Positions 6,638 to 42,694 of a stretch of DNA of 64,000 nucleotides are shown here, piece by piece. Both the position numbers and the translations under genes were made by a program. Under the pieces are notes generated by a model. The model worked only from the letters and a program-made list of their open reading frames with translations. It did no database searches and was not told where the DNA came from. The DNA comes from Streptomyces sp. NRRL B-3428 (GTDB lineage Bacteria; Actinomycetota; Actinomycetes; Streptomycetales; Streptomycetaceae), in contig JOGW01000016.1 in assembly GCA_000721375.1 (NCBI GenBank), positions 62,001-126,000 of the forward strand. The letters run 5' to 3'. How positions within the stretch are numbered: position 1 is the stretch's first letter; each line of letters begins with the position of its first letter.

Positions 6638-6835
6638 TGTCTCGCCCCTCGTCGTTCCGTGACCCTGTCTGGTCCGGGAACGCTATCGGAGGCGTCAACT
6701 CGCGTGGACCCCGGGAGTGATCAGCCCCCGTCGCTGTGGCCGGACCGGCGGCGCTTCCGGGTAGCGCCGCGAACGCGGCCCGGCGCCTCCTGGATGCCAG
6801 TGCCGAGTCGTCGAGCGCTGTGACAGCATCAGTCG

Positions 6836-6970
6836 ATGATCAATGCTGAGGACCTGGTCGGCATCGCCCTGCAGTTCGCGAAGGGGAGCATCCGCGTCCT
6901 CAACCTCGCGGACGAAATTGTCCTGGCCCATGACCAGCACCTGGGTCCGGTTGAGGCCCGTCTCAACTAG
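6836..6970 (+). CDS. Possible 44-aa protein or gene remnant
   Basis: ATG 6836 opens a short frame (MINAEDLVGIALQFAKGSIR...) whose composition looks protein-like. It has no ribosome site and runs 8 bases into the 3' end of the leftward MFS gene. It may be a decayed fragment of a longer gene. The rest of the 6638-6962 interval shows nothing recognisable. Confidence 0.22.
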   Translation: MINAEDLVGIALQFAKGSIRVLNLADEIVLAHDQHLGPVEARLN

Positions 6971-8246: not shown

Positions 8247-8285
8247 GACGCCGAGGCTCGTCGCGCGCCCACGCCGCTCACCAAT

Positions 8286-8305
8286 GATTCGTCGGTGGAC
8301 GAATC
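8286..8305. promoter_or_regulatory. Palindromic operator between MFS and ArsR-type genes
   Basis: GATTCGTC, a 4-nt spacer (GGTG) and GACGAATC form a perfect inverted repeat. It lies 40 bp from the MFS start and 31 bp from the regulator start, the expected place for a repressor site controlling both divergent promoters. The regulator at 8336 is the obvious candidate binder. Confidence 0.65.
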
Positions 8306-8335
8306 GCAGCGTACGTCCGGCGGTAGCATCACGGC

Positions 8336-9316: not shown

Positions 9317-9378
9317 GGTCCTCTCCGGCCCAACTCCCCACGTCCAGAAGGGCGATGGCCCTCCGCGAACGCGGATGT

Positions 9379-9396
9379 GTCTTGACTTCACAAGAC
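9379..9396. promoter_or_regulatory. Short inverted repeat upstream of the flavoprotein gene
   Basis: GTCTTG, a 6-nt spacer and CAAGAC form an inverted repeat 113 bp upstream of the flavoprotein start. It overlaps a TTGACT sequence that could be a -35 element. An operator role is possible but rests on the repeat alone. Confidence 0.25.
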
Positions 9397-9508
9397 CGTC
9401 GCGCAAACCTCACCGGGCACTCGCCCACGCCCCGGCCCTCCCCGCCGACCGGCCGCCCCGCGCACCGCTCGTCCCCGGAACTCCCTCACCCCGCAGGAGC
9501 GATACGCC

Positions 9509-14298: not shown

Positions 14299-15351
14299 TC
14301 ACGCCGTGCCCGACTGCTGGGCACCGCCTACCTTCGGGCGCAACTTCAGTTCCACCGCGAGGGTCTCCGCCACCATGTGAGTGCGCAGCCAGTCGCACCG
14401 TTTCGCGCGTGATTCCTCCTGGCACTGCAAGTACGCCTGGTCGCCCGCCAGTTGGGCGAGCAGTTCCCGGCCGCGCAGCGATCCAGTGAGTGCGCAGCAC
14501 AGACACTCCTGGTACTCGTTCACGTCGGCGAAGCGTCCCCACACCGCGTCCGCGGCGTAGGAGACCTGTTTTGCCCTGGCGTAGAGCTTCTTGGCGCTCT
14601 CACGGGGCTCGGCCTTGCCGGCGGTGTCCAGTTCGGCCAGCAGCGCCTTCAGGTCGGCGGCCCGCTTGCGGACGGCCTCCGGTTCCTTGACCAGCACGTC
14701 GTCGAAGCACCGCTCGACCCTTTCGACCCGCAGACGCAGTCCCTCGCTCTGGTCCACGCTCCAGGTCTCGTTCTCGAACCTGCAGTCCTCGTCGGCGCAG
14801 CAGCCCGCACGATCGGGGCAGTCGTCGAGGCAGTCGAGGACCTGCTGGAAGGCGTGGTCGAGACACTCGATCTCGTCCCGGTGGAGCCGGCAGCGGATCT
14901 CGGCCAGCGCCTCCTCGACCTTGTGCCTGACCTCGTCCACGACAGCGGCCGCCTCGTCACGTGCCGCGCTGTAGTCACCGCGGGCTGTCTCGAACGCGGT
15001 GCGCCGTTTGACCAGGGCGTCGGCCACCGCGGCGAACGCGTCGGACTCCGCCTTCACCGCCTTGGCCCGGCACTGCAGATCGTCGATGGCGCCGGTGTCG
15101 CACTCCATGGAGGGCGGGCACGGGTGCGTCGGGGGGCGTGTCACTTCAGGGGCGGGGGTGCGCTCCAGCCGTTTGCTCTGGGTGCGCTCACGGGCAGGTC
15201 CTGCGGATTCCTCCGGCTGCGGCTCCGGCTCCGGTTCCGGCTGCGGCTTGGCCGACGGCGGATCGCCCGTGCGCCGGGAGGGCGTCCAGGGCCCGCCCCG
15301 CGGCTGCCGACCGTAACGCGCCTCCTGCTCGCTTTCATGCGGCGTGGTCAT
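14299..15351 (-). CDS. Cysteine-rich coiled-coil protein of the eCIS locus
   Basis: From ATG 15351 (GGGAGGGA upstream) the product is 350 aa. Residues 1-85 are proline/glutamate-rich and disordered (PEPEPEPQPEE). The remainder is strongly helical with coiled-coil character and contains 16 cysteines, including a cluster LDCLDDCPDRAGCCADEDC near residues 175-195 and QECLCCAL near 290. No signal peptide is seen, so the cysteines may bind metal rather than form disulfides. It faces the Cis16 gene across a divergent region with a 26-bp palindrome. I do not recognise a characterised homologue; structural accessory or regulatory roles are both possible. Confidence 0.65.
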   Translation of the reverse strand: MTTPHESEQEARYGRQPRGGPWTPSRRTGDPPSAKPQPEPEPEPQPEESAGPARERTQSKRLERTPAPEVTRPPTHPCPPSMECDTGAIDDLQCRAKAVKAESDAFAAVADALVKRRTAFETARGDYSAARDEAAAVVDEVRHKVEEALAEIRCRLHRDEIECLDHAFQQVLDCLDDCPDRAGCCADEDCRFENETWSVDQSEGLRLRVERVERCFDDVLVKEPEAVRKRAADLKALLAELDTAGKAEPRESAKKLYARAKQVSYAADAVWGRFADVNEYQECLCCALTGSLRGRELLAQLAGDQAYLQCQEESRAKRCDWLRTHMVAETLAVELKLRPKVGGAQQSGTA

Positions 15352-15425
15352 CTTCTCGGTCCCTCCCGGCAACGACGACGGACGATCCGCGGTACCGGCA
15401 CCAGACTTGCCGTGGCGTCGTCACG

Positions 15426-28252: not shown

Positions 28253-29449
28253 ATGGGCCGTATCGCCGAGGTCGCCGAGTCGTTCCGTTACCGGGTCCCG
28301 ACGACCCGGCTGCGCTGGTTCACCGGACGCTTCATCACCGCGCGGGACCTTACCGACGAGCAGGACTACCACGTCGCACGCCATCGACTGCACAACCGGC
28401 TGCTGCACGGCTGGGGCACGGTCTGCGGCCTGGTCGTACGGCCGCACGAGCGGGCGGAGTGCGGATACGAGTGGGTGCGCGTCGAACCGGGGATCGCCAT
28501 CGACTGCGTGGGCCGCGAGATCGTGCTGCCCCACAGCGAAGCCGTGCACTGGGAGATCGACCCCGAGCGCGCCGCCGCCGACGACGCGCTGGCCATCCTC
28601 TGCGTCCGCTACCGCGAATGCCTCGCCGAACCCCTGCCCGCCATCGTGGCCGACTGCTCGTCCGCGACCGGCACCGAACCCGGACGCGTCGTCGAACAGT
28701 GGGAGTTCGAGCTGCACCCGGTCTCCGGTGACGTGGACGACGAGTGGGCGCGGCTGCTGCGGCACGGACCCGGTACGGCGCCCGCCGCACATGGACACTG
28801 CTCCGACGGGTGCGGGCGCCGGCCGTGCGAGGGCGGGTGCGTGGAGCCGGTCGGCGAGTTCGGGGAGTGTGTGCCGATCGCGCTGCTCAGCCGCTGCCGG
28901 GGCGAGGCCATCCGGATCGACGTGGACCGTCATGGCATCCGCCGCGACGTACGGCGCACCCTGCCCCCGCCGGTCGCCTACCTCACGCACATCGTGGCGA
29001 CCAGTTGGGAGCACGGCGGTGAGGTCGGCATCGATGAACTCATCGACGCGGGCGGCGAGTTGCGGGTGCGCTTCGACCGGGACCTCGCACCCGCCGACGG
29101 ACTGCGCACCGGTGTCAACCAGTTCACCTTCCTGGTGGAGATCGAGGACTCCACCGGCAGCCGCGAGCGCCTCGACTTCGACGCGGCCAACGCCCCCAGG
29201 GTGGTGGACGGTTGCGAGGCGGTCTTCACCATCGACCCGGACGCCCTGCGTCGCTCGGGCCGCCACGGCGGACTGCCGAAGCTGGTCGGCGACACCGTCT
29301 TCGTCACCGTGCTCGGCGATCTCATCAAGGACTGTCACGGGATTCCGGTCGACGCCGACTTCCTCGGCACCTTCCCGACCGGCGACGGCATCAAGGGCGG
29401 CGTGCTGCGCAGCTGGTTCTTCGTGACCGAAAGGGGGGCCGGGACATGA
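28253..29449 (+). CDS. eCIS-locus protein with shared N-terminal module and Cys cluster
   Basis: The 398-aa product starts after a strong GAGGAGAAGGA site. Residues about 20-95 hold a module with RWFTGRFITARDLTDEQDYH, RLHNRLLHGWGTVCGLVVRP and VEPGIAIDCVGREIVLP. Related versions begin the two neighbouring proteins at 29446 and 31716. Residues about 183-196 read CSDGCGRRPCEGGC, a compact four-cysteine cluster. The C-terminal half contains Ig-like strands (LRVRFDRDLAPADG, NQFTFLVEIEDSTGS). It occupies the place of tail-fibre genes after the baseplate in PVC loci. A baseplate decoration or receptor/cargo attachment role is inferred; no enzyme motif is seen. Confidence 0.72.
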   Translation: MGRIAEVAESFRYRVPTTRLRWFTGRFITARDLTDEQDYHVARHRLHNRLLHGWGTVCGLVVRPHERAECGYEWVRVEPGIAIDCVGREIVLPHSEAVHWEIDPERAAADDALAILCVRYRECLAEPLPAIVADCSSATGTEPGRVVEQWEFELHPVSGDVDDEWARLLRHGPGTAPAAHGHCSDGCGRRPCEGGCVEPVGEFGECVPIALLSRCRGEAIRIDVDRHGIRRDVRRTLPPPVAYLTHIVATSWEHGGEVGIDELIDAGGELRVRFDRDLAPADGLRTGVNQFTFLVEIEDSTGSRERLDFDAANAPRVVDGCEAVFTIDPDALRRSGRHGGLPKLVGDTVFVTVLGDLIKDCHGIPVDADFLGTFPTGDGIKGGVLRSWFFVTERGAGT

Positions 29450-30708
29450 GCCGCGGTCACGAGGTGCCGGCGGCGGCCGGAGTGGAGTGTCCGGGACCGG
29501 AGCGTTCGGGACCCGAGTGTGTGGAACGCCCGCTGTTCACCTGCGGGATGGTGCTGTCCGACGCGGACCTCACCGCGCTCGTCGAATGGGCACGGGCGCG
29601 GCTGGGGCTCCAGCGGTTCCGTACGGGCTGGGGTGTGGTGTGCGGCCTCGATGTGCGCTGCGACCCCGAACGGGCCGGCTGGGTACGGGTCGAGTCGGGC
29701 GTGGCGGTCGTCGAGGACGGCCAGGACGTCGTGGTCGGCGAGCCGATCTCGGTCGACCTGACCGGCTGCTGTGCGGTCGCGAGCCCCTGCGCGGCGCCCC
29801 AGCCGGCGAAGGAGGTCGACCGGGACGCATGCGGCGACGTGGTCGTCGACCTGGTCCTGTCGGCCGAGGACGCCCCGACCGGAACGGACCTGGCCGGCGG
29901 GTGCACTTGCGGCTGCACACCCGCGACGGAGCACATGGTGCTCACCAGGGTGCGCGAACGGGCTCGTATCCATGCCCGCCCGGTCGCGATGCCGGCCGTC
30001 GACCCCGCGCTTGCGGCCGCCCAGCGACGGCAGGCGGCGTACTCCGAGTGCCACCGCGTGGTGGAGCGCTACGTCAAAGCGGGGCGTGGCGAGCGTTCGC
30101 CCGACGAGGTGATCGACTGGCTGGGCGGACAGGACCTGGACCCGCCGTGCGGCTGGTGGGAGACGACGTGCGAGGACCTGCGGGCGTCCGACGCCGCAGC
30201 GGCTCTGGACGCCGCCGTGGCACGGGCGTTACTCGATCTCGTCGTGGACTACCGGCACCGCCTGGTGCGGCGTGCCTGCGCGTCGTGCGAGTGCGAGGAC
30301 CGGATACGGCTCGCCCGGGTCTGGCTGCGGCGCCCGGACAAGACCCATGACTCCTGCCGGGTCGTCCGTATCGACGCCTACCCGCCCTATCGCCGCGAAC
30401 TCGGCCCGTGCACCGGCCCGGTTCCGCCCGGCTCCTTCGATCTGACACCGTTCCTGTGGCAGCGCTGGCAGCAGATCTGCACACGCTGGCGCACCCTCGC
30501 CGGTGACAAGCGCGTCCAGAAACTGAAGGTGCCGACCACGACCGAGAACCTCCTGGCCCTGCTCGAAGGCACCGACCGTATGTCCTGGGACTGCGCCGAC
30601 AACGCACCGGTCCCGGTGGTGGTGCCCACCGCATGCCTCGGTGAACGCGTGCTCGGCTTCGCACCCCGCCCCACCGCGACCCGCACCCGGCGCAAGGCGG
30701 GACCATGA
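29446..30708 (+). CDS. Cysteine-rich eCIS-locus protein with shared N-terminal module
   Basis: The 420-aa product overlaps the previous stop by ATGA. Its N-terminal module (about residues 25-100: RPLFTCGMVLSDADLTALVE, RTGWGVVCGLDVRCDPERAG, VRVESGVAVVEDGQDVVV) is clearly related to that of the preceding gene. I count 23 cysteines, with clusters GGCTCGCTP near 150 and ACASCECED near 277, and there is no signal peptide. This suggests bound metal or a rigid fold after release. A TTA leucine codon lies at 30229-30231 (ARALLDLV), the second in the operon. Function is unknown; position suggests a baseplate or fibre-region component. Confidence 0.7.
   Translation: MSRGHEVPAAAGVECPGPERSGPECVERPLFTCGMVLSDADLTALVEWARARLGLQRFRTGWGVVCGLDVRCDPERAGWVRVESGVAVVEDGQDVVVGEPISVDLTGCCAVASPCAAPQPAKEVDRDACGDVVVDLVLSAEDAPTGTDLAGGCTCGCTPATEHMVLTRVRERARIHARPVAMPAVDPALAAAQRRQAAYSECHRVVERYVKAGRGERSPDEVIDWLGGQDLDPPCGWWETTCEDLRASDAAAALDAAVARALLDLVVDYRHRLVRRACASCECEDRIRLARVWLRRPDKTHDSCRVVRIDAYPPYRRELGPCTGPVPPGSFDLTPFLWQRWQQICTRWRTLAGDKRVQKLKVPTTTENLLALLEGTDRMSWDCADNAPVPVVVPTACLGERVLGFAPRPTATRTRRKAGP
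30229..30231 (+). promoter_or_regulatory. TTA (bldA-dependent) codon in the 420-aa fibre-region gene
   Basis: The codon is in frame with ATG 29446 and encodes the first leucine of ALLDLVVDY. With the sheath codon at 17690 it makes two TTA codons in one operon. Confidence 0.85.
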
Positions 30709-31697
30709 GCGGGCACCTGGAGTTCCGCGATGGGCGCCGGCTTTCCGCGGCGGATCTCAACCAGGAGGACGCCGCCCGCCGTGCAGACCTGGATCTGCAC
30801 GAGCGTCTCGCCCACCGCGACGACGGCCTGGTCGGCAGCCGGATCTCGGCCCCGGGCGCAGGCGCGGCACTGGACTTCACGCCGGACGGCCTTGGAGCCG
30901 AACTGCGCTGCACGCTCGGCGACGCAGCGCAGGCGCTGCGTCTGAGCGCGTCGCGTGGGCACCGCGCCGAGGCCGTCACGGCGTACGGCACCGAGGTGCG
31001 CGTGGCGCGCGCGGTACGCCTGGTCGCCGCGACCGGCCCGCCGGAGCCGTCGCTGCCCTGGAGTGTGCGGGCGATCGACGTCAGGGGCGACGACGGAGCA
31101 CTGCTTTCCCGGGAGCTGCGCGTCGAATTGGGGGTCCCGCTCGGCTCACCGGCGCACAGCAGTCGGCTGACCGTGGGCCGGACGGTGGACAACACGTTCG
31201 TGCCGGTGCTCGTCGTCGACGCGGCGGGTTCCGTCAGAGTCGTCGGCGATCTTCGGGTGGCCGGCACGGCCACGCAGGGCGCGATCCGTCCCGATCCCAC
31301 GGATCCCCGTTTCGTGTCTCTGCTGACCGACGTGCTCGCCCGCCGCATCGTGGATACGGCCGTCGCCGCGCCCACCGCGGGCCTGCAACTGGCCGCACAG
31401 ATCGACCCCGCGAGGTCGACACCACAGAAGGCCACCCTCGCTGTGACGTTGACACCCGCCGTGACGCTGGCCCGATGGGGCGCCGCGCTCGCGGTGCACC
31501 GATCCGGCACCACCCGGTTCGGCCTCGTCACACGGGGCCGTGACGCGGCCCCCGGCGCGGCGGTGAGATTCCCGGCGGCCGTCGAGTGGACCCCCGACGT
31601 CTCGGCGGCAGCGCCCGCTCGACTGGCCGTCGCAGTTGTCGCGTTCGACCTCCAGAGCCGAGTGTTCGCCCAGAGCGCTTCGGTCACCGTTCCGTAG
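30705..31697 (+). CDS. eCIS-locus fibre-like protein, 330 aa
   Basis: ATGA overlap links it to the preceding gene. The start (LEFRDGRRLSAADLNQEDAA) is a short, weaker version of the shared N-terminal module. The centre has VLVVDAAGSVRVVGDLRVAG, the alternating strand pattern common in tail-fibre and spike shafts and echoed in the next protein. The last 100 residues resemble a beta-sandwich (LAVTLTPAVTLARWGAALAV, RLAVAVVAFDLQSRVF). No catalytic site is visible. A structural, fibre-related role is inferred from these strands and from position. Confidence 0.66.
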   Translation: MSGHLEFRDGRRLSAADLNQEDAARRADLDLHERLAHRDDGLVGSRISAPGAGAALDFTPDGLGAELRCTLGDAAQALRLSASRGHRAEAVTAYGTEVRVARAVRLVAATGPPEPSLPWSVRAIDVRGDDGALLSRELRVELGVPLGSPAHSSRLTVGRTVDNTFVPVLVVDAAGSVRVVGDLRVAGTATQGAIRPDPTDPRFVSLLTDVLARRIVDTAVAAPTAGLQLAAQIDPARSTPQKATLAVTLTPAVTLARWGAALAVHRSGTTRFGLVTRGRDAAPGAAVRFPAAVEWTPDVSAAAPARLAVAVVAFDLQSRVFAQSASVTVP

Positions 31698-31715
31698 CAG
31701 CGGGAAGGACAGCAC

Positions 31716-32807
31716 ATGCAACGTCCCGTGTTCGCCGATGGGCGCGTCCTGCGCACCTCGGACTTCGTCGCCGAGCAGAACTACCACCTCGACGCCGTAC
31801 GGCGGCACAACGCCACCCTCCACGTCTGGGGCATCGCCTCCGGACTGCGGATCCTCCTGCAGGAGGGAGAACTGGTGGTGGAGAAGGGCGCCGCGATCGA
31901 CGGCTTCGGACGGTACGTGGTCCTGGACACCGCGAAAGCGCTGGATCTACGGAGTTGGCGCATCCAGGGCATCGACGGAGTCGACGTATGGGCCTGCTAC
32001 ACCCAGCGGCGGACGCAGGCCACCGGCGACGGCGTCGACAGCGTCACCGACGCGGCGAGCATCGAGTGCACCGCCGCCAAGGAGATCGACCCACGCCGTC
32101 CGGACGCCGTCTCGGCCACCGACCTCGTCGCCGGCGCCACCCGGCAGAGCGACGACCTGGCCCGACGCTGGCCGGTCTACCTGGGCCGGATCACCTTCGA
32201 CGCAGCCCGCCCCGACGCCGCGCCGACCATCGGCATGGACCGGCGCGCGACACTCGGTGTGGTCGGCGCGACGGTCAGGACGCCGGAGGGCTTCGCCTGG
32301 CTGGCCCTGACCGAGGACGGGAACCCGGCAGTGCAGGTGCATCTGCCGGACCGTGCGGGCAAGCCACGGACACCGCTCAAGGTCAGCGCCGCGGACGGCG
32401 TCGAGATCGACGACACCTTGACGGTCGACGGTGAACTGGTCCTCAAGGGCGGGTCCTTGAGGGTCCTGCCCGGCGCGGCCGCGCTCGGTGCGACGGACGC
32501 CGCACCCGCCGAGTGGTCGCTGAGCCATGCGGTCGACGGCGTCGCCCACGATCTACGGGTGGCGCTGCCGGCCACCGTCGACGACTCCGTGCCGAACCGG
32601 CTGGTCGTCGGGGCGTGGCGCGACGGCCGGTTCGCCCCGAGCCTGGAGGTCGATGTCAACGGGACCCTGACGGTCCACGGCAATCTGGTGGTCGAGGGCC
32701 GGCTCCAAGCGGCTTCCGTGCAGGAGGCACCTCTGAGCGAGGAGGCCCGGGCCACTTTGGCCGGGGTGCAGACGGCCGGGCTGCTGGCGCTGTTCGACAT
32801 CAACTAG
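31716..32807 (+). CDS. eCIS-locus fibre-like protein with shared N-terminal module, 363 aa
   Basis: The product begins RPVFADGRVLRTSDFVAEQN, then NATLHVWGIASGLRILLQEG and EKGAAIDGFGRYVVLDTA, the same module as the genes at 28253 and 29446. The C-terminal third has VEIDDTLTVDGELVLKGGSL and LEVDVNGTLTVHGNLVVEGR, tandem fibre-shaft-like strands matching one stretch of the preceding protein. GGGAAGGA precedes the ATG. The N-terminal module probably docks to the baseplate while the C-terminal strands trimerise, but this is inference. Its stop lies in a 26-bp tandem duplication. Confidence 0.7.
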   Translation: MQRPVFADGRVLRTSDFVAEQNYHLDAVRRHNATLHVWGIASGLRILLQEGELVVEKGAAIDGFGRYVVLDTAKALDLRSWRIQGIDGVDVWACYTQRRTQATGDGVDSVTDAASIECTAAKEIDPRRPDAVSATDLVAGATRQSDDLARRWPVYLGRITFDAARPDAAPTIGMDRRATLGVVGATVRTPEGFAWLALTEDGNPAVQVHLPDRAGKPRTPLKVSAADGVEIDDTLTVDGELVLKGGSLRVLPGAAALGATDAAPAEWSLSHAVDGVAHDLRVALPATVDDSVPNRLVVGAWRDGRFAPSLEVDVNGTLTVHGNLVVEGRLQAASVQEAPLSEEARATLAGVQTAGLLALFDIN

Positions 32808-32855: not shown

Positions 32856-34904
32856 ATGGACGTCAGCATCGGACGGCTTCAACTACGGGCCCGTGTCCTC
32901 GGCGCCGCGGGTGCGGCCGGGCGCGGCGCGGTCCTCGACCTGCTGGCGGGCGCCGCCGCACGCGAGCGGATGTTCGCGGGCCTGTCCGCCGCGTTCGACG
33001 GCGACGAGGTGGTGCTGATCCGCGACCTGGTCTGCCGGGCGACGGTCTCCACGGACACCGCGTCCGGGCCGGACAGCCTGGTGCGGTCGCTGGTCGCGTC
33101 CGCCGCCCGACTTCTGCGGGACCATCCATGCGACGACGACCGCGTGGTCAGGTTTCCCGACGAGGCGGCCTTCGTCGCCGCGTACATCCACAACTGCCTG
33201 GGCGGGCACCGGCATTACTGGTACTTCGATGCCTTCCGACGGTTTCTGCGCCCGGACGGATCGCCCGACTGGGGCGCCCTGCTCGTCGAGCACCGGGCGC
33301 GGCGCTGGCCGGTCCTTGCTGCGGTCCGCGCGAGCGGCGACCTCGAGCCGCTGCTCGCCGCCCTGGGGGAGGACGGCGTCCGTGAACTCCTCGGCAGCGG
33401 GGAAGCACCGGACGACGGCTGGCCGGCCCTGTCCGCCACCGCGGGCCAGATCGTCCGTACGGCCGACGCCTTGTCGTCCCGCGCGCCTGCCCTGCGCGCG
33501 CCGCCTGCGCCGCCTGAGGCGCCGCCCATCCAGCCAGCGGCCGTGCCGCCACCGGACTGGCGGGATCCGGAGAGCCTGGGGTCTGCGGTCGCGACCGTGG
33601 TGAGCGGCCTGCTCGCGGCGTCGGAGCCGCAAGCCGGAGATACGTCGGGGCAGCACGACCGTACGGAGGCCGTGGCCGAAGCCGCCCGGCACTACGACTG
33701 GTTCGACCACGAGGCCTTCCGTCGGAGCCTGCCCGCGGGCGCGGCGACAGTGTCGCTCTCACTGCGCTCCCGGCAGATCCTCGCCGATCTGTCCGAGGCG
33801 ATCGCCGATCCGCTGCTGGTCCTGGACCCGGCTGGACCCGCGTCGGCTGCGAACCTGGTCCGTCTGATGGCGGCCCTGGTGCACAGGGCGCCGCGATGGA
33901 GCGAGGATGAGCTGGCCCGTTCGCTGACCGAGCATGTTCTGCGGCACTGGCAGCGGAATGCGGCCGGCCCGCCTCGTACGACGGGCAGTGAGCCGTCCGC
34001 GCCCCACGCGTCGGAAGCCCGGCCGGACGGGGTGAACCCGCCCATCGGACAGGAGAGTTGGGAACCGGCCGCCGCACTGCCGCTGGAGCCCGCCGCAGTT
34101 GCCGATCGACTCGCAGCGCGATTCCCGGCCGAACACGTTCATCACGAGCATCTGGAATCGCAGACTGCGGCCGGGCTTTTGCTGCTGCGCTCCGTGCTCG
34201 ATCTCGGCCTCGGCAGACGTCTGCTCGACCCTGCCGGCCCCGACGGCGAAGCACTCCTGGGCGCACTCCTTCGACGCTGGACGGGCTGTCGGCCCACCAC
34301 CGACCCACTCCTGGAGATCCTCCGAGCGGCACCCCGCACGCCGGACGCCGAGGGGATTGGAGTGCTCGTGACACGACGACTGCTCGGCCAGCGGCTCGCC
34401 GTACCTCCCTTCCGCACGATCACCGTGCCGTACGCGGCGGACCGGGTCGCCGCGACCGTGGTGGACGCGGCGGGACGGGTGCTGCCGCTCGATCCGGAAC
34501 AACTCGGCGAGCTGGGCCATGAGTTGGAGCTGGAGTGCGAGCCGGGCGACGCGGAGGGCGAGGGTGATCACCGGACCGCCGTCGCCGAAGCCATGGCAGC
34601 GATCGACTGCGGCCCGCCGTACGATCTCGCGCTCGACCTCCTCGCGATCGCCTGCGTGCACAGCTGGGCGCGCTGGCTGCCGGGCTTCGCCACGGCGAGC
34701 GCGCCGTTCCTGCTGCGCACACTCGTGCGCCGGCCGGCCCGGGTCGCGATCGACGAGGACGCCGTCACCGTGCACCTTGCGGCCCGGCCCCACGACGTCG
34801 TCCTCGACCTGGCCGGCTATCTCGCGCCCGTCGCCGCTGTCCCCGAACTGGGCGGCCGCCGGGTCCAGTTCGTGACAGGAGAGGGAGAGGGCCATGCCAC
34901 CTGA
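32856..34904 (+). CDS. cis14: eCIS tape-measure protein (Cis14/Pvc14-like)
   Basis: From ATG 32856 the protein is 682 aa. It resembles the contractile injection system tape-measure family: a start with IGRLQLRARV, long helical segments, a proline-rich linker near 210-235 (RAPPAPPEAPPIQPA), and, near residue 435, TAAGLLLLRSVLDLGLGRRL, which corresponds to the family's conserved NAGLVLL.PFL...LGL block. Such proteins fill the nascent tube and set its length. It immediately precedes the AAA+ gene, as in Afp/PVC, and overlaps it by 11 bases. A longer start at 32814 would not match the ribosome site. Confidence 0.75.
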   Translation: MDVSIGRLQLRARVLGAAGAAGRGAVLDLLAGAAARERMFAGLSAAFDGDEVVLIRDLVCRATVSTDTASGPDSLVRSLVASAARLLRDHPCDDDRVVRFPDEAAFVAAYIHNCLGGHRHYWYFDAFRRFLRPDGSPDWGALLVEHRARRWPVLAAVRASGDLEPLLAALGEDGVRELLGSGEAPDDGWPALSATAGQIVRTADALSSRAPALRAPPAPPEAPPIQPAAVPPPDWRDPESLGSAVATVVSGLLAASEPQAGDTSGQHDRTEAVAEAARHYDWFDHEAFRRSLPAGAATVSLSLRSRQILADLSEAIADPLLVLDPAGPASAANLVRLMAALVHRAPRWSEDELARSLTEHVLRHWQRNAAGPPRTTGSEPSAPHASEARPDGVNPPIGQESWEPAAALPLEPAAVADRLAARFPAEHVHHEHLESQTAAGLLLLRSVLDLGLGRRLLDPAGPDGEALLGALLRRWTGCRPTTDPLLEILRAAPRTPDAEGIGVLVTRRLLGQRLAVPPFRTITVPYAADRVAATVVDAAGRVLPLDPEQLGELGHELELECEPGDAEGEGDHRTAVAEAMAAIDCGPPYDLALDLLAIACVHSWARWLPGFATASAPFLLRTLVRRPARVAIDEDAVTVHLAARPHDVVLDLAGYLAPVAAVPELGGRRVQFVTGEGEGHAT

Positions 34905-37071
34905 GCCTTACGCGACCAGCCTCGATCACCTCTACGACGAACTGGGCCGGGTCGAGCTCACGGTGCGCGCACAAGTGGAGCGCTGGCGCCGGGCCGTCGC
35001 AGAGCTGCGTGAGGAGACGGCCTGGGGGACCGGCATCCTCGACGACCGGGAGGTGCGGCGCTATCTGGGCCACCCCTTCACCGCGCCACTCGCCGAGGCG
35101 GAGACCCCCGAGGCCGTACGCGAGCTGCAGCGCCGCGCGATGGCACAGACCCTGACGATCGCCACCCGGCGCGCCCTGTCCCCTCCGTCGACTCTGCGCC
35201 TGGAGCGGCTGCGCGCCGCCCTTGGCCTCACTCCCGACGATGTGGACGTACTGCTCATCTGTCTCCTCGACGAGCTGGACGGACGCTACCGCAGGCTCTT
35301 CGCCTACCTGGCCGACGAGCGCTGGCTGCACAGCCCGACGGTCGGCCTGCTGGCCGAGATCCTGCGCCCCGCCCCCGCGGAACTGCCGGATTTCCGGGCC
35401 CGGTTCGCCCCTGGCGCCCCGCTGATGCACCACAGGGTCGTGTGCCTCGACGACGACCCCCGGCTGTCCGCCCGGTCCGTGCGCCTGGACGCGAGGATCG
35501 CCGCGTACCTCACCGGCCAGGACTACCTCGACGGCTGGCTGGCCGAAGCGGTCAAGGTCGCCGAGCCGCTGCGCTACGAGGACCTCGTGCTGTCCGACGA
35601 CCGCCGCACCAGGCTTCGCGCCCTCGGCGAATCCTGCTCCCGTCGGGTCGGCCATGACCGCGTGGCCGTGATCGCCCTCATAGGCGACGAGGGCAGCGGC
35701 CGCACCTCGACCGCCCGGTGTCTGGCCACCCAACTCGACGTGGAACTGCTCCTCGTCGACGTGGCCGCCGCGGCTGCGAGCGGCACCGACTTCGCCGGCG
35801 AGCTCTATCGCGAGGCGCTGCTGCGCGGCGCCGCGGTCCTGTGGCGCGGCTGCGCCCAGCTCGCAGGCCCGCCGGCCACCGGAGACCGGACCTGGCCCAC
35901 TCTCCTCGCGTACGCGGCGCAGCATCCGCACCCCACCTTCGTCGACCATCTGCAGCCGTGGGATCCGGCCGAACGCAGCCCGGGCGGCGGTGCGTTCGTA
36001 CGCCTGGCCTGCCCGTCACCCGATCTGGACGAGCGACACGCGCTCTGGACCGAGCTGCTCGGCGACACGGAAGTGGCGGACCGCCTGGCCGGCACGTTCC
36101 TACTCACGCCCGGCAGGATGCTGGACGCGATCAAGATGAGCGCCGAACTGGCCCGCCAACGCGGCGCCGCGGTCACGGACGCGCCGGCGGAGGAGGATCT
36201 GCGCGACGCCTGCCGCCGCCAGTCCTCGCGCCGGTTGATGAGCATCGCCCGCCTCATCGAGGCGCCGGCGCACATGACCCTTGACGACATCGTGCTGCCC
36301 GGCCCGAATCTGCGGCAGCTGAAGGCCCTGCGGGACCGGGTCGCCAACCGCCCGCGCTTCGAGCAGCTGGTCGGGCCGGGGCGCAGTGGCCCGAAGGGTC
36401 TGGTGGCGATGTTCGCCGGCTCGTCCGGCACCGGTAAGACTCTCGCCGCCGGTCTGCTGGCCAAGGACCTGGGGCGGGATCTGCTGAAGGTCGATCTGGC
36501 TCAGGTGGTCAGCAAGTGGGTGGGGGAGACCGAGAAGAATCTGGACCGGCTGCTCGACGAGGCTCAGGACGCGCACGCGATCCTGTTCTTCGACGAGGCC
36601 GAGGCCATCTTCGGCAAGCGCGGCGCGGTGAGTGACGCCCGTGACAGGTACGCGCTGCAGGAGACCAGTTTCCTGCTGCAGCGGATCGAGGAGTACGAGG
36701 GCGTGGTCATCCTGGCGACGAATCTGCGACAGAACCTCGACGACGCGTTCAGCCGCAGGATCCAGGTGGTCATCGAGTTCCTCACTCCTGACGGCAAGGC
36801 CCGCGAGCAGATGTGGCGGCTCGCGCTGTCGGGTGTCGAGCACGACCTGACGGACGAGGACCTCGCCCGGGTGGCGAAGGCATCCCGGCTCTCCGCGGCC
36901 GCGATCGTCCAGGTCGTGGTCGCGGCGACCTATGCGGCGGTGGCCCGTAACCCCGACGCGCCGCGGCTCACGGCCGAGGACGTGGAGGACGCGGTACGGG
37001 CGGAGCTTCAGCGGGTCGGTCTGCCTGCTCCGGCCGGCACCGATACGGGCCGGGCGGGTGGAGGGCGATGA
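34894..37071 (+). CDS. cis15: AAA+ ATPase of the eCIS (Cis15)
   Basis: The 725-aa protein has two ATPase modules. The first, near residue 262, is degenerate (IGDEGSGRTSTARCLA with a weak Walker B). The second, residues about 470-680, is complete: GSSGTGKTLAAGLLAK (Walker A, about 508), ILFFDEAEAIFGKRG (Walker B, about 565), ATNLRQNLDDAFSRRIQVVI (sensor 1 and arginine finger). It matches Pvc15/Afp15, needed for particle assembly or tape-measure/cargo handling in the cytoplasm. It is the last gene of the operon and converges on the large putative effector gene 42 bp away. Confidence 0.92.
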   Translation: MPPEPYATSLDHLYDELGRVELTVRAQVERWRRAVAELREETAWGTGILDDREVRRYLGHPFTAPLAEAETPEAVRELQRRAMAQTLTIATRRALSPPSTLRLERLRAALGLTPDDVDVLLICLLDELDGRYRRLFAYLADERWLHSPTVGLLAEILRPAPAELPDFRARFAPGAPLMHHRVVCLDDDPRLSARSVRLDARIAAYLTGQDYLDGWLAEAVKVAEPLRYEDLVLSDDRRTRLRALGESCSRRVGHDRVAVIALIGDEGSGRTSTARCLATQLDVELLLVDVAAAAASGTDFAGELYREALLRGAAVLWRGCAQLAGPPATGDRTWPTLLAYAAQHPHPTFVDHLQPWDPAERSPGGGAFVRLACPSPDLDERHALWTELLGDTEVADRLAGTFLLTPGRMLDAIKMSAELARQRGAAVTDAPAEEDLRDACRRQSSRRLMSIARLIEAPAHMTLDDIVLPGPNLRQLKALRDRVANRPRFEQLVGPGRSGPKGLVAMFAGSSGTGKTLAAGLLAKDLGRDLLKVDLAQVVSKWVGETEKNLDRLLDEAQDAHAILFFDEAEAIFGKRGAVSDARDRYALQETSFLLQRIEEYEGVVILATNLRQNLDDAFSRRIQVVIEFLTPDGKAREQMWRLALSGVEHDLTDEDLARVAKASRLSAAAIVQVVVAATYAAVARNPDAPRLTAEDVEDAVRAELQRVGLPAPAGTDTGRAGGGR

Positions 37072-37113
37072 CCGCTGCCCTTTGAACTCACGGGCCCGCC
37101 AGGCCGATTGGTG

Positions 37114-40100
37114 CTATGGAAACTGCAGGTCGAGGTCCTTGTAGAACCGAGTCCAGCTCTCGTCGAACGCGGTGGCCAGCTCGTCGAGTGCCGCCTGTCG
37201 TTGCGGCGGGGACCCGTAACCGACACGGTCCATCGCGTCGGCGACAGCGTTCTTTCCTGCTTGGTACGCATCGTTCACGCCGCGCTCGATGACCATCTGC
37301 GTCTTCTTCACCACGTCGTCCTTGAGATGCTGGCGGGTCGTCAGTTGGACCTGCTTGATCGCCAGGAGTACGTCGCGAAGGACCATGTGTGCCGCGGAAT
37401 CGGGCTGTGGCGCCTTCGTATGGTCCTTGACGCCCGTAATGCCGTTCAGCACCTCGTAGACGTCCCCCAGGAACATCCGCCAGTTCGAGGTTCTCGGGTT
37501 GACCGAGGCATGCGTGGTGAACTGGCCCATGCGCAGTTGGAAGCGCCGTTTGACCAGGATGAGGTCCTGCGTTGCGGGGTTGGTGGACATTTCGGCGAAC
37601 GCGGGAGCGGAGCCCTTGATGGTGTGCACGCCCTCGTCTTTGCCGTGCGCCTCCTCGCTGAGCATGATCGCGCTGAGTTTCTCGCCGTTCGGGAACACCT
37701 TGTCCATCTCTTCCTTGCGTTTGTCGAACGCAGCGGCGACCGCCTTGGCGTCATCGTCGGCTTTCCAGGGATCGTTCCGCAGTCCCGTGGCGACCTCGCT
37801 CCACAGCTCGCCGATCGCCTTGCTCAGCGCCTGCGCCGGAACGTGGTGCGAATGTTCTGGGCCCTTGACCGGTTTCTTCCGTTCCAACTTGTGTGGTCCG
37901 GCAAAGGGCCCTTCGGCGGGAATGACCTTGGCGTCCTTGGCCTCGCTGTCGTTGGGGGCGATCCGCACCGTGAAGTCGATCGTCTTGTCCTCCGCGTCGG
38001 TGGACGGACTCTCGAACAGGACCGACATCGCCACGTGTTCGGCCGCGAGGGACTCGTTGCGCGCCGTGGTGATCTTCGCGGCCTGCTGCTCCGTCTTGGC
38101 GCGGATCGCTTTGTAATCGAGACCCTCGTCGTCCGGCGAAGGCGTGGCCAGTTCCTCCGCCACCTCCCGCACCGCCTGCTCGTGCGGTGTGCCGGGCTGC
38201 TCCTTCTCCTTCTTGCCGATGCCGAGCGAGGCGAGCAGGGCCTTGCCCTTCTCCACGAGCCAGGTGAGCGCCCGCTCGATCAGGCCGAGCACCCACTCGC
38301 GCAGGCTCTTCACCTTGGCGGCGACCATCGAGGGGAGATCGCCCAGGCCGAGGTAGTCGGTGATGAACGAGACGACCGGAGAAATCAGCGTGGCCAGGCC
38401 CTTCTCGACCGCCTGCGCGAACCCCGCCGTGTTCCCGGCCAGGATGTCGGTGATGCCGTTCACCACGGTTTCCACGAACGTGAAGAGCCGCGCCGCGTTC
38501 TGGAAGATCCACTTGAGTACGCGGTAGATGGCCTCGACCGCCTGGAGGATCGCGCCGGCCGGATTGAAGAGGGCAAGGATGCGTACGCTCGCCTGCTTGA
38601 CGATCGCGGAGGTGAGGAAGTCGACCGCGAGCTGGACCACTTGATCGACCAGCATCTGCGGGTTCAACTGCTCCTTGATCATCTCGTGGATGCCCTCAGG
38701 ACCCATCTCGATGAGCGTCGAGACCATCGAGTAGACCTTCTCGGCCAGCGCGACGTTCTTCGCGCCGAGCAGTTTGGCGAGGATCTTGCGGATGTTGGGC
38801 CAGGTGATGCCCATCAGCTGCAGGAAGAACGTGACGATGCCGCGCAGAGACAGGTCTTTGGGCACCTGTACGTCCTTGACCCCGCCGAGCAGCCAGCCGA
38901 GGAAGCCCTTGAGCATATGGGTGCCGAAGTTCTGGAAGAACAGCCCGAAGCCGTCCCCCAGTCCCCGCAGCAGGCGGTCGGCGAACTCCAGCGGATCGTC
39001 GGCGATCTTGCGGACCGCCCGCTTGATTCTCGCGACCACGGCCCAGAACGACGCGGGTGGAATACCGAGAGCTTCGAGGAGCCCCTCGATGAGAAACCTG
39101 ACCGGATCCGCGACGAACCGGTTCACCGCGCCGACGATCCGGCCGAGCAACCCGCCGGCCTTCCGGCGCAGTTCAGCGATCTCCCCGCGGACTTCGTCGA
39201 CCGCCGCGCTGGAACTGCGCACCAGATCCCTGGTGAAGCCGTCCCGGACCGCGATCACTTCGCCGTGCAGCCGGTCGAGGCGGAGGTCGAACTGTGCCCG
39301 CTCGTGCTCCGCCTTGGCCCGCACGGCATCGGGCAGCTCCGCGTAGATCCCGTCGATCCGTTCGCGGGCGCTCTTGATGATCAGGTCGCACGCCGCGATC
39401 ACCGCGTTCACCTTCGCGGAGATGGCGCACAGCTTGTCGATCACGCTCTCGGCGAAGGCGTTCTCGGCCTGGGCGTATGCCTCCTCCGCCCACTTGGGCA
39501 GACCCCTCACCGCGTCCCAGACGCCGACGAAGAACCCGCCCAACCCGGCGTGCCGGGCGTCGACCCGGTCCTGGACGGGTTTCAGATCCGCCCTGAACTT
39601 GCCGGCGAAAGCGTCCTTCGCGCTGTCCCATTCCGCCATGGCCGTCGCGGGCAGATCCTTGAGCTGGGCGTTCACCAGCGCCCTCGCGTCGGCGAAGATC
39701 CGCTGCGCCTCGGCGGCGGCCGCGCTGCGCATCATCTCCTCGGACCCGACCAGCCCGCTCTGCCGCGCGGTGAAGCCCTTCGACGTTGTCTGACGCGAGG
39801 TCTCGAGTGCCGCCAGCGTGCGGGCCTGCAGAGCCGCCATGTCGTCCTCGGCCCGGGCGAGCGACTGCCGCTGCGAGGCCAGGACTTGGGCCGGGTCCTC
39901 CGCCGCCACCTGGTCGAGCTCGCCCTGCGCTGCCCGCGCCTCGGCCACCGGTCCGGTACGCGCGAGGTCGGCCACGGGGGTGGCCATCCCGGCGTCCTGC
40001 GCCTTTTGGCGAGAGTCCGCGGCTTCTTGATCGAGTGAGACCTCGCGGGCTGTCACCGCACCGGGCACCGCCGTCTGCGCGTCGACGGGCACGGTCGCCC

Positions 40101-41139
40101 CGACCGAGGGCTGCGCCGCAAGGTCAAGTCCCTTTGCCGGAGCATCGGCTGACGGGGAGTCGTTCATCGGGCCGTAGTGACCCTGTACGTCTCGGATCTC
40201 GCCGTCGACCGACGCGTTCAGCTGATCACCGGCGTCAGCGGCCGTCTCCTCCGGTTTCGCCGCCATCAGGGCGTCCTCGTCGGGCGGGCGCTTGGTGCGG
40301 ATGACATCCCGGATGCGCTTGGCCAGTTCGACGATCTCCTGGCTCGGCTCGGCGTGCACCTGCGCGATCAGCGTGCGCTCGCCGAGGGCAACGCGCTCCG
40401 CGGCCGGCTGCGACACGGCCTCCCGGGCGTCGCCGACCTGGCTGGTTCCCCCCGGCAGCCGTCCGTACGCGGTGGCCGTGGCGGTGGCCCGGGCTTGTAC
40501 GTCACGGAGGCGGTGGGCTTCGGCGGGGGAGGGGCCTGCCGGTGGCTCCGGCAGCTGTGAGGGTTCGGCGCTGCTGCCCCTGATACGGGTCGGTGGAGGT
40601 GCCGGTGCCGGCCCCGCAGCCGCGCCTTCGGTTCGTGTCGGCCGGGGTGGCCCTTTCGTATCGGCCTGAACGACCGAACGCGGCGCCGACGATCCGCTTC
40701 CCGATCCGCTTCCCGATCCTGCCGCGGGCCGCGGGGGCGCCCCGTCCGGTACGACGCCGGACGCCGAGCCCGGCCGCGGAGCCTGAACTGCAAGGTCCGC
40801 GAGGGCAGCGGGCCGGCTCGGTTCGCCCGCGGGCGTACGGCTGATCGGTGCGGCCGACGCCAGCCGCCGCGCGGCGGCCTGCATGCTGGCGCCGGGTCCC
40901 GCCGCCCGCCGCGCCGCGTTCCCGACCGCACCCGAGGCGCCGACCGCACCCGATGCCCCGGCGAAACCCGACCGCGCGGATGCCCCCGTACGCGCGGACA
41001 CCCCCGCACGAAGACCCGTCCGATGCTCACCGGAATCCTTACGGACGGTGGGCCGGACTCGCTCGCGGGCCTTCTCGGTTCCCAACACGCCCCCTTCGGC
41101 CGCCTGCCAGGCCCACCCATGCTCCCCGGCCCACGTCAC
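37114..41139 (-). CDS. Giant eCIS-associated protein with C-terminal SHH-type putative nuclease domain
   Basis: The 1341-aa product (GTG 41139; GTG 41088 preceded by AAGGGGG is a likely alternative start) has a disordered Ala/Pro/Ser-rich region to about residue 330, helical regions to about 600, and a long block of amphipathic and hydrophobic helices (about 640-1000, for example ILAKLLGAKNVALAEKVYSM). Similar blocks occur in eCIS-linked toxin carriers. Around residue 1097 it reads GPEHSHHVPAQAL, followed about 70 residues later by KLSAIMLSEEAHGKDEGVHT, the layout of HNH/endonuclease VII-like toxin domains with an SHH signature. No HExxH protease motif is present. It converges on the ATPase gene. 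I infer a cargo effector; no immunity gene is obvious. Confidence 0.7.
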   Translation of the reverse strand: MTWAGEHGWAWQAAEGGVLGTEKARERVRPTVRKDSGEHRTGLRAGVSARTGASARSGFAGASGAVGASGAVGNAARRAAGPGASMQAAARRLASAAPISRTPAGEPSRPAALADLAVQAPRPGSASGVVPDGAPPRPAAGSGSGSGSGSSAPRSVVQADTKGPPRPTRTEGAAAGPAPAPPPTRIRGSSAEPSQLPEPPAGPSPAEAHRLRDVQARATATATAYGRLPGGTSQVGDAREAVSQPAAERVALGERTLIAQVHAEPSQEIVELAKRIRDVIRTKRPPDEDALMAAKPEETAADAGDQLNASVDGEIRDVQGHYGPMNDSPSADAPAKGLDLAAQPSVGATVPVDAQTAVPGAVTAREVSLDQEAADSRQKAQDAGMATPVADLARTGPVAEARAAQGELDQVAAEDPAQVLASQRQSLARAEDDMAALQARTLAALETSRQTTSKGFTARQSGLVGSEEMMRSAAAAEAQRIFADARALVNAQLKDLPATAMAEWDSAKDAFAGKFRADLKPVQDRVDARHAGLGGFFVGVWDAVRGLPKWAEEAYAQAENAFAESVIDKLCAISAKVNAVIAACDLIIKSARERIDGIYAELPDAVRAKAEHERAQFDLRLDRLHGEVIAVRDGFTRDLVRSSSAAVDEVRGEIAELRRKAGGLLGRIVGAVNRFVADPVRFLIEGLLEALGIPPASFWAVVARIKRAVRKIADDPLEFADRLLRGLGDGFGLFFQNFGTHMLKGFLGWLLGGVKDVQVPKDLSLRGIVTFFLQLMGITWPNIRKILAKLLGAKNVALAEKVYSMVSTLIEMGPEGIHEMIKEQLNPQMLVDQVVQLAVDFLTSAIVKQASVRILALFNPAGAILQAVEAIYRVLKWIFQNAARLFTFVETVVNGITDILAGNTAGFAQAVEKGLATLISPVVSFITDYLGLGDLPSMVAAKVKSLREWVLGLIERALTWLVEKGKALLASLGIGKKEKEQPGTPHEQAVREVAEELATPSPDDEGLDYKAIRAKTEQQAAKITTARNESLAAEHVAMSVLFESPSTDAEDKTIDFTVRIAPNDSEAKDAKVIPAEGPFAGPHKLERKKPVKGPEHSHHVPAQALSKAIGELWSEVATGLRNDPWKADDDAKAVAAAFDKRKEEMDKVFPNGEKLSAIMLSEEAHGKDEGVHTIKGSAPAFAEMSTNPATQDLILVKRRFQLRMGQFTTHASVNPRTSNWRMFLGDVYEVLNGITGVKDHTKAPQPDSAAHMVLRDVLLAIKQVQLTTRQHLKDDVVKKTQMVIERGVNDAYQAGKNAVADAMDRVGYGSPPQRQAALDELATAFDESWTRFYKDLDLQFP

Positions 41140-41428: not shown

Positions 41429-42694
41429 ATGGGGACCGAACGTGTCGAGACCGAGCCGTGTCCGCAGTGCGGAGCCGATATGCCGGTGCAGGCCGGTCAT
41501 GTGGTCTGGTGTCGAGCCTGCGACTGGAACGTGGCGCCCGAACTGTTCGTGTTCGGCCTCGGTGGCAGCGCGGAGCGCCGGGCCGAGGTCGCCGGCCAGC
41601 GGGCCGAGGAGATCTTTTCCGAGCTGACCAGGACCGGCGACTTCGGGCGCCGATCGCGCTGGACGGCCGCGCGGATCGCCGCGTACGGCCTGTCCTGCGG
41701 TGTCGTCGGAGCGTCGGTGGCGCTCGCGGGTGGTGCGGTGGCGCTGCTGGTCACGGGCTGGTGGAACCCGCTCAGTGTCACGCTCGGCCTCGTCCTGCTG
41801 TTCTTCTCCGCGGTGCTACGGCCCTGGGTGGCGCCGCTGAACCCTCAGCTGCCGCGACTGGTGCGGCGCACCGCGCCCCGCCTGTTCGCCCTGCTCGACG
41901 AGGTGGCGCGGGAGGTCGGCACACGGGGTGTGGACCTCGTGATCCTTGAGCCCGGCTTCAATGCGTACGTCACCTCACGCCGCCCTGGGCAACGTGTCCT
42001 GTGCATCGGACTGACCCTCTGGGAGACCCTCACGCCGCAACAGCGGGTTGCCCTGCTCGGCCACGAACTCGGTCACTTCACCGGCGGCGACACCCGGCAC
42101 GGCCTGGTCGTCGGCAACGCGCTCGGCACGCTCGCCTGGTGGCGGCACTGGCTCGACCCGGGACGGTGGCACGGCGGGCGGCTGCGGCACTGGTTCGGCC
42201 ACGGCGTACTGCGCTGGCCGTGGTACGCGGCCGACGGTCTGCTCCGCGTGATCGACCGGCTGAGTCTGCGCGACTCGACCCGCGCGGAGTTCCTGGCCGA
42301 CCACCTCGCCGCCCGGGTCGCCTCGAGCGATGCCGCACACGGTCTGGCCGAACGGCTGCTGCACGTCGACCGTGCCGTCGAGGCGCTCAACGAACTCCTG
42401 GTGGACGGCGTCCTCGACTGGCGCCGGGGGCCCTGGTCCGACGCCGCGCGTGCGGCCCTCGACCTCCCGGACCACGAACGCGAACGTCTTCTGCGCGTGA
42501 GCCAACTGCAATGGCACTACGAGGACGACACCCACCCGCCGACCCATCTGCGCCTCGCCCTGGCCGAACACTGCGCCTACACCGAGGCACGCGTGGAATG
42601 CGGACAACAGCAGGCCAAGGCCATCGACCGCGAACTCGCCCAGGCCGTCAAGTCCGCTGCGGCGCACGGGCCCTTGCGAACCCGACGGGTCTGA
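41429..42694 (+). CDS. M48-family membrane metalloprotease with zinc-ribbon N-terminus
   Basis: The 421-aa protein (ATG 41429 after GGGGGCGAGG) starts with a zinc-ribbon (CPQCGADMPVQAGHVVWCRACDW, cysteines paired 3 and 2 apart). Two membrane helices follow at about 80-130. A peptidase M48 domain has GHELGHF near residue 212 and EFLADHLAAR near 288 supplying the third zinc ligand. HtpX-like enzymes degrade membrane or misfolded proteins. The reading frame is open far upstream, but that part lacks a ribosome site and overlaps the effector gene antisense. It is divergent from the putative effector, so a role in processing or protection is possible but speculative. Confidence 0.8.
   Translation: MGTERVETEPCPQCGADMPVQAGHVVWCRACDWNVAPELFVFGLGGSAERRAEVAGQRAEEIFSELTRTGDFGRRSRWTAARIAAYGLSCGVVGASVALAGGAVALLVTGWWNPLSVTLGLVLLFFSAVLRPWVAPLNPQLPRLVRRTAPRLFALLDEVAREVGTRGVDLVILEPGFNAYVTSRRPGQRVLCIGLTLWETLTPQQRVALLGHELGHFTGGDTRHGLVVGNALGTLAWWRHWLDPGRWHGGRLRHWFGHGVLRWPWYAADGLLRVIDRLSLRDSTRAEFLADHLAARVASSDAAHGLAERLLHVDRAVEALNELLVDGVLDWRRGPWSDAARAALDLPDHERERLLRVSQLQWHYEDDTHPPTHLRLALAEHCAYTEARVECGQQQAKAIDRELAQAVKSAAAHGPLRTRRV

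Follow-up and report, generated by a model that had tools for sequence, protein, structure and literature searches.

We analysed a 64,000-nucleotide stretch of the genome of Streptomyces sp. NRRL B-3428 (contig JOGW01000016.1, positions 62,001 to 126,000; hereafter the window), in which a gene cluster for a contractile injection system (CIS) is followed at its end by a large open reading frame (ORF) of the opposite strand. The protein encoded by this ORF is very likely both a carrier and the cargo of the adjacent CIS, and its C-terminal part is very probably a toxin tip. That the tip is a metal-dependent nuclease is more probable than not, and the whole is best explained, with the same moderate confidence, as a tape-measure-derived CIS cargo with a metal-dependent nuclease tip. 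The parts of the carrier, with residues numbered along the 1341-codon frame, are as follows.

37114–41085, minus strand: cargo carrier with a toxin-like tip; the ORF extends to a GTG at 41139, the probable start being a TTG at 41085.
40360–41085, minus strand: N-terminal region rich in Pro, Gly, Ser and Ala, probably disordered by its composition, to about residue 260.
39820–40359, minus strand: entry to the body, residues 261–440, 75.0% identical to the Streptomyces mesophilus carrier.
38185–39819, minus strand: helical body, apparently tape-measure-related, residues 441–985, supported by PHROGs, relatives and 86.6% identity to S. mesophilus.
37873–38184, minus strand: HEQAVxxVA linker, residues 986–1089, a pattern seen among the listed carriers exclusively before tip type 1; predicted alpha/beta.
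37114–37872, minus strand: putative nuclease toxin tip of type 1, residues 1090–1341, with a confident model.
37843–37851, minus strand: S1097-H1098-H1099, closing predicted strand 1; each of the two histidines is present in 29/29 members.
37624–37647, minus strand: H1165 to H1172, after predicted strand 2, in 29/29 and 25/29 members, respectively.

The carrier function is suggested by the body. The profile phrog_1535 (tail length tape measure protein) matches residues 480–932 (E-value 5.6e-7), two further tape-measure PHROGs match the same protein, P0001 (phrog_4200, 9.6e-5; phrog_991, 1.4e-4), and such profiles recur in three of the four carriers scanned (P0001, P0085 and P0052). From these profiles the body looks to be derived from a phage tape-measure protein; remote homology of this kind, together with encoding alongside a CIS cluster, is also found in the broad class of effectors that includes the published Tme and Sle1. 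The hydrophobicity anticipated for this helical block in the original prediction is mild, a single stretch (residues 570–588) exceeding a 19-residue Kyte-Doolittle mean of 1.6. Using residues 440–1000 as a query, we recovered 449 proteins at E≤0.001 and analysed the best 120 of these in detail; apart from the window's own entry (P0002, the same protein as P0001), the 119 relatives are 58–87% identical to the query. Named sources among the matches listed include Streptomyces, Nocardioides, Actinoplanes, Janthinobacterium, Paraburkholderia, Lysobacter, Sphingomonas and an acidobacterial metagenome-assembled genome. Distant bodies (23–28% identity where most of the query is covered) occur in 18 of 196 other genomes of the order sample, all 18 of the same genus, and body matches are found in 32 plasmid records; close bodies at E≤1e-60 are confined to one of 396 genomes of the phylum, namely the window's own.

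Behind this conserved body, the C-termini are exchanged. The sequence following residue 985 was cut from 121 records (the window protein and the 120 listed relatives), two proteins with at most 150 residues behind the body (P0092 and P0109) were dropped, and the remaining 119 rows, 118 of them distinct, were grouped by BLAST linkage over the last 200 residues. The groups contain 30, 28, 20, 17, 8, 7, 3 and 2 rows, with four singletons, giving at least eight multi-member C-terminal types among the 118 distinct carriers drawn from the best 120 of 449 body relatives. A variable C-terminal domain behind a conserved body is thus observed, as in Sle1-type effectors and polymorphic toxin systems, and on its sequence the protein would be a polymorphic-toxin carrier akin to Tme and Sle1, in support of the CIS cargo with a variable toxin-like C-terminus originally predicted. 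Tip type 4 also occurs (52–56% identity) in another genome of the genus (L013) on a body only 25% identical to the window's, which argues that tips move between bodies. By eye, type 4 was also recognised in a further genome of the same genus (L027); in L013 and L027 it is His-rich (ASGHWNR.GHKQTRE...YHGPEHE) and perhaps an HNH-like nuclease. Two of the singletons (P0039 and P0113) end 197 and 200 residues behind the body and look by eye truncated, frameshifted or decayed, P0113 retaining ESHHVPA. Among sibling tips, the EndA-like nuclease family PF13930 is precomputed for P0085 and P0100, and signals below the Pfam cut-offs point to PF13930 in P0028 (0.025) and to an NAD1 deaminase in P0012 (1.3e-4). 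Annotation names of plasmid relatives include DddA-like deaminase toxin, polymorphic toxin type 15 and DNA/RNA non-specific endonuclease; on the Streptomyces anulatus plasmid NZ_CP109318.1 (L042), a gene at 6774–10007 annotated as a DddA-like double-stranded DNA deaminase toxin has a carrier body with 25% identity.

The window's tip type, type 1, has 29 distinct members among the 118 carriers and is the largest listed group by one (29 vs 28). Both motifs named in the original prediction are present, GPEHSHHVPAQAL at residues 1093–1105 and LSAIMLSEEAH at residues 1155–1165, and the conservation of their histidines among homologues, on which that prediction depended, was found: H1098, H1099 and H1165 are invariant in 29/29 members and H1172 is His in 25/29, while position 1097 is Ser in 25, Ala in two and Val in two. 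Some conservation is expected because the members were grouped by similarity of this very region; what counts is persistence, the histidines being fixed although 25 of the 28 other members are only 14–41% identical to the window protein over tip and linker. The HEQAVxxVA linker precedes the tip in 19 of 29 type-1 carriers, the window's included, and in 0/89 others. Ten type-1 members carry a VGE...HxLWI linker instead (nine by pattern, P0086 by eye), and the same loose VGE pattern occurs in 85 of 89 rows of other tip types; a seeming resemblance between tip 1 and some other tips was traced to this linker, shared by a subset, and rejected. When the window's carrier is compared with that of S. 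mesophilus, amino acid identity is 59.3% in the tip (nonsynonymous rate dN 0.266, synonymous rate dS 0.329, dN/dS ~0.8) and 86.6% in the body (dN 0.074, dS 0.370, dN/dS ~0.2), as estimated by the NG86 method, which is rough on GC-rich codons. Because dS is similar in the two parts (0.33 in the tip, 0.37 in the body), the comparison fits faster protein change in the tip rather than its replacement from a distant source.

The AlphaFold2 model of residues 985–1341, built from a 29-row alignment, is confident (predicted local distance difference test, pLDDT, 91.7; predicted template modelling score, pTM, 0.80). In it, H1098-H1099 end a strand (1095–1099), followed by two helices (1103–1120 and 1129–1148), a second strand (1156–1161) and a short helix whose last residue is H1165; another helix begins at 1174. 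The HNH/endonuclease VII-like layout originally proposed stands in part: the order strand(HH)-strand-helix(H) fits a metal-finger nuclease, and a match to a known nuclease fold was not obtained. The element order of an HNH or His-Me finger recurs in both models computed. In the available text on the Agrobacterium effector V2c, a His-Me finger is described in which the catalytic His ends strand 1 and the metal-binding His lies in the helix after strand 2 (PMC10902643). The tip probably works like an HNH nuclease and yet is no Tox-SHH member.

Family searches of the whole carrier gave nothing in Pfam or PADLOC and one chance-level NCBIfam match (residues 905–964, E 0.035), and PF13930 matched neither carrier nor tip. 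Relatives of the tip were found in one of 199 genomes of the genus and one of 396 of the phylum, in each case the window's own, and none appeared in plasmid or phage records. Two scans of viral contigs (A2 and A1) were likewise negative, of which A2 tested little because its patterns came from the body and its confirmation used the tip. We found no published description of the tip in a literature scope that excludes most subscription papers and all bioRxiv preprints.

As a plausible mechanism, the helical, mildly hydrophobic body probably lies in the lumen of the tube, and the C-terminal ~250 residues would form an exchangeable tip that is ejected when the sheath contracts. Most likely this tip is a nuclease for DNA or RNA that works with a single bound metal ion; H1099 would act as the general base and H1098, H1165 and perhaps H1172 would hold the metal, all within a His-Me/HNH-like finger in which two helices take the place of the loop. 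The producer could escape harm because the tip is retained in the tube before contraction; alternatively, it could itself be attacked, Streptomyces CISs having been reported to cause cell death or DNA release. Remote tape-measure likeness, tip exchange, histidine invariance, strand/helix order, the lack of a detectable DUF4157 and the lack of an adjacent immunity gene are computed, whereas tube loading, ejection, nuclease activity, the part played by each histidine and the target are inferred.

Several observations weigh against a tape-measure-derived cargo with a nuclease tip. The tape-measure likeness of the body is remote and of a kind that helical composition can produce; one of the four carriers scanned (P0029) matches no tape-measure PHROG, and the body has zero matches in 50,697 phage records. 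Tme and Sle1/Sle2 couple their cargo to the spike through DUF4157; the carrier has none, which leaves its loading without an explanation. At the tip, H1172 is replaced by Phe in four members (P0016, P0056, P0060 and P0086), the distance of 66 residues from H1099 to H1165 is far from that of a compact finger, and a shorter construct (residues 1079–1215) reproduced the order of elements with low confidence (pLDDT 73.1, pTM 0.47). The tip matches nothing in Pfam or NCBIfam and no known nuclease fold; among PDB sequences P0001 has no match and the tip profile gave one meaningless match (E 0.052), and comparing a profile of the toxin part with four AHH sequences and six sibling tips was negative. 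A standalone toxin cassette of 139–441 aa with this tip was not found. Finally, speed of change alone is no mark of a toxin because the N-terminal region has diverged further still (residues 20–260: 51.9% identity to S. mesophilus, against 59.3%; dN 0.384, dS 0.631, dN/dS ~0.6).

The missing nuclease match, be it of profile or fold, would also be expected if the carrier were rightly identified and its tip were another His-dependent enzyme or a binding domain, such as a metal hydrolase, a phosphoesterase or a protein modifier. The mostly helical model of the tip points the same way, as do the sibling tips, which include a probable deaminase, so that the carrier family is not restricted to nucleases. 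However, other sibling tips resemble nucleases, and [SAV]-HH-V-P ending a strand, followed by a strand and then a helix with His, is the element order of HNH nucleases in the available description (PMC10902643); we regard a non-nuclease tip as unlikely, though it is the most serious contender. The tape-measure profiles could also be taken to mean that the protein is mainly structural, serving as the tape measure of the CIS, with the tip as a folded cap or tube anchor and no effector; no Pfam tape-measure family was detected among the scanned cluster proteins, a scan made with Pfam and not with PHROGs. A structural cap, however, would not be expected to be exchanged between eight or more unrelated types while the bodies remain related, or to evolve so much more quickly than the body does, and a mainly structural role is improbable.

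Still less probable, to the point of being nearly dismissed, is the membership in the Tox-SHH clade (PF15652) that had been suggested from the SHH signature. The tip does possess the [SG]HH motif and a later conserved His (SHH in the window; S, A or V before HH in 25, 2 and 2 of the 29 members), in keeping with the definition '[SG]HH, H' given in the available part of PMC3482391. Nevertheless, PF15652 is silent in the window's genome under conditions where the Bacillus subtilis control is positive, the window's tip has no Pfam match at all, and the family is absent from six rescanned type-1 members and from the 25 of 31 families shown for the type, the latter being all that covers the other 22 members; moreover, the HH-to-H spacing is 66 rather than 24. 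For the metal-dependent nuclease tip itself, a bolder extension is conceivable and rather doubtful, namely that it represents a separate, undescribed clade of metal-finger nucleases with two helices replacing the loop, exclusive to tape-measure-derived CIS cargo, that such CISs dispense with DUF4157, and that no immunity protein is needed, release occurring only on contraction, perhaps within the producer's mycelium.

The absence of a DUF4157 HExxH motif, noted in the original prediction, extends beyond the carrier, which has no Pfam match and no HExxH in its first 450 residues. PF13699 (DUF4157) had no match in the window's genome (8.57 Mb in 74 contigs, estimated completeness 100%), and in the same run five of five other genomes of the genus, selected for their content of distantly related bodies, were positive. 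None was detected in the S. mesophilus and N. pini genomes either, in a run with no positive of its own, for which the preceding run serves as the positive control; the completeness of these two genomes is not stated. Fused DUF4157 occurs in at least 6 of the 120 listed relatives, since truncated N-termini in some entries may hide further cases.

The impression that no obvious immunity gene is present also holds beside the carrier in the window (42 bp to the ATPase) and in S. mesophilus (15 bp), the only two loci with the window's tip read for neighbours. The adjacent immunity gene typical of polymorphic toxin systems was thus not seen beside this tip, candidates occurring only beside other tips (L004 and L043). 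In Nocardioides pini, a 199-aa ORF without a Pfam match (L004, 13384–13983) overlaps the end of a type-4 carrier and is a candidate immunity gene by position alone that may be SUFU-like. In Aureibacter (L043), the corresponding overlap, with the end of a distant carrier, involves a GAD-like gene. Since ORFs overlap the carrier ends in N. pini and Aureibacter, other tips may have immunity partners. The missing neighbour beside the window's tip would be consistent with release at contraction, with action inside the producer or with an unlinked protein. The inference of a self-directed or cross-kingdom toxin is one reading of the missing gene that gained no evidence here, most verified extracellular CIS (eCIS) toxins being without an immunity gene according to the available text of PMC8213781. 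Streptomyces CISs have reportedly been linked to death of the producing cell (PMC10066040, PMC10020575) and to the release of DNA (PMC11126660).

The ORF predicted to span 1341 aa at 37114–41139 was recovered with a GTG start, and we add that it lies on the minus strand. It aligns over residues 1–1340 with a locus of S. mesophilus YC504 (L003), and over the stretches they share with it, the database proteins of Streptomyces canus (P0003) and S. mesophilus (P0004) show 74% and 73% identity, respectively; these matches indicate that it is a real gene. P0003 aligns from carrier residue 86 onwards, and the recorded N-terminus of P0004 is shorter still. In all three loci read, the sequence GTEK(A/T)R stands immediately behind a potential start codon (TTG in the window, GTG in L003 and in L004 of N. 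pini), so the TTG at 41085, 18 codons downstream of the GTG, is probably the true start, which would give 1323 aa. Upstream of this start, GAAGGGGG is present in the window and in L003. On the plus strand, an opposite ORF at 37108–40038 looks like an antisense frame of a GC-rich genome.

The neighbouring cluster comprises the following features.

15500–37071, plus strand: CIS structural cluster, recognised by Pfam domains, with sheath and tube relatives in the PDB.
34894–37071, plus strand: CIS AAA ATPase (PF00004, 1.7e-27; PF22977, 1.3e-37), convergent to the carrier.

Its Pfam domains include Pvc16_N, two sheaths, a tube, CIS_tube with Phage_tail_X, a spike OB domain, PAAR, Baseplate_J, Tail_P2_I and the AAA ATPase, alongside several proteins without a Pfam match; for the first sheath, 9ezm_A (398 bits), 8bky_A and 8bl4_V rank highest in the PDB. 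The convergent order of carrier and ATPase described earlier for the window is confirmed, with 42 bp between the stop and the carrier end, and is conserved in 3/3 close-family loci read, with a 15-bp gap in S. mesophilus and one additional ORF between the two genes in N. pini; further cluster genes also adjoin the carrier in both. The S. mesophilus ORFs upstream of the carrier look different from the window's. Four consecutive proteins of the window's cluster (28253–32807, plus strand; 398, 420, 330 and 363 aa) have no Pfam match at E≤1, and a Cys-rich, helical-looking 357-aa ORF lies at the other end of the cluster (14299–15372, minus strand). Divergent from the carrier, 41429–42694 on the plus strand (start read by eye) encodes an M48-family peptidase (PF01435, 7.1e-11) with a possible N-terminal zinc ribbon, sub-threshold.

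The role of DUF4157 in toxin loading and the reason why most eCIS toxins lack immunity genes are named as open questions in the available part of PMC8213781. Our data bear on both. One closely conserved body (58–87% identity in the best 120 of 449) spans actinobacteria, proteobacteria and an acidobacterium, where sources are named, with at least eight tip types. DUF4157-independent loading is directly testable here because DUF4157 occurs in just 6 of the 120 listed relatives and was detected in none of three carrier-holding genomes. Likewise, one purified fragment can test activity and self-protection because the largest listed tip group is an undescribed, probably nucleolytic domain.

Among known systems, each compared here through the available portion of its description, one close in design is Tme (BN159_7576) of the Streptomyces davawensis CIS, likewise large, linked to a CIS and made up of a tape-measure-related body that ends in a toxin-like domain, whose C-terminal part, Tme-C, is a Mg-dependent endonuclease (PMC11126660). 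Tme, however, has an N-terminal DUF4157, which the carrier lacks, ends in an EndA-like DRGH/H-N-N nuclease rather than an undescribed HH...H tip, and is encoded just upstream of baseplate genes rather than convergent to the ATPase at the cluster end; the word 'immunity' is absent from the main text of that paper (PMC11126660). Sle1/Sle2 of the Streptomyces lividans SLP and RS14790/RS14785 of Micromonospora eburnea resemble the carrier as tape-measure-related effectors without a DUF4157 of their own and with variable C-terminal domains (PMC13277306). For Sle1, as here, no immunity protein was found, whereas RS14790 has an immunity partner; in contrast to the carrier, in whose genome no DUF4157 gene was detected, Sle1 is paired with the DUF4157 protein Sle2, and its gene lies just upstream of the sheath gene (PMC13277306). 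The eCIS toxins of Geller et al. 2021 share the C-terminal toxin behind a long linker, often without an immunity gene, but possess a DUF4157 leader, of which none was found in the carrier or the window's genome (PMC8213781). V2c of Agrobacterium (Tox-SHH, PF15652) shares with the tip a Ser-His-His at a predicted strand end, a later conserved His and the terminal place on a polymorphic carrier that belongs to a contractile system, and differs in the spacing of its histidines (24 between H384 and H408, against 66 between H1099 and H1165), in its PF15652 membership, in its immunity protein V3c, and in its carrier and delivery machine (PMC10902643). Since the carrier is without a stated feature of each, it should not be filed under Tme or Sle1, a separation from these and RS14790 drawn from their descriptions and not from direct sequence alignment. 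It shares with Tme and Sle1 the broader class of tape-measure-related CIS effectors. Thus, what is known is the broad CIS-effector class, published 2024–2026, to which the carrier belongs; what is new is the tip domain, the apparent lack of DUF4157 and the breadth of tips on one closely conserved body.

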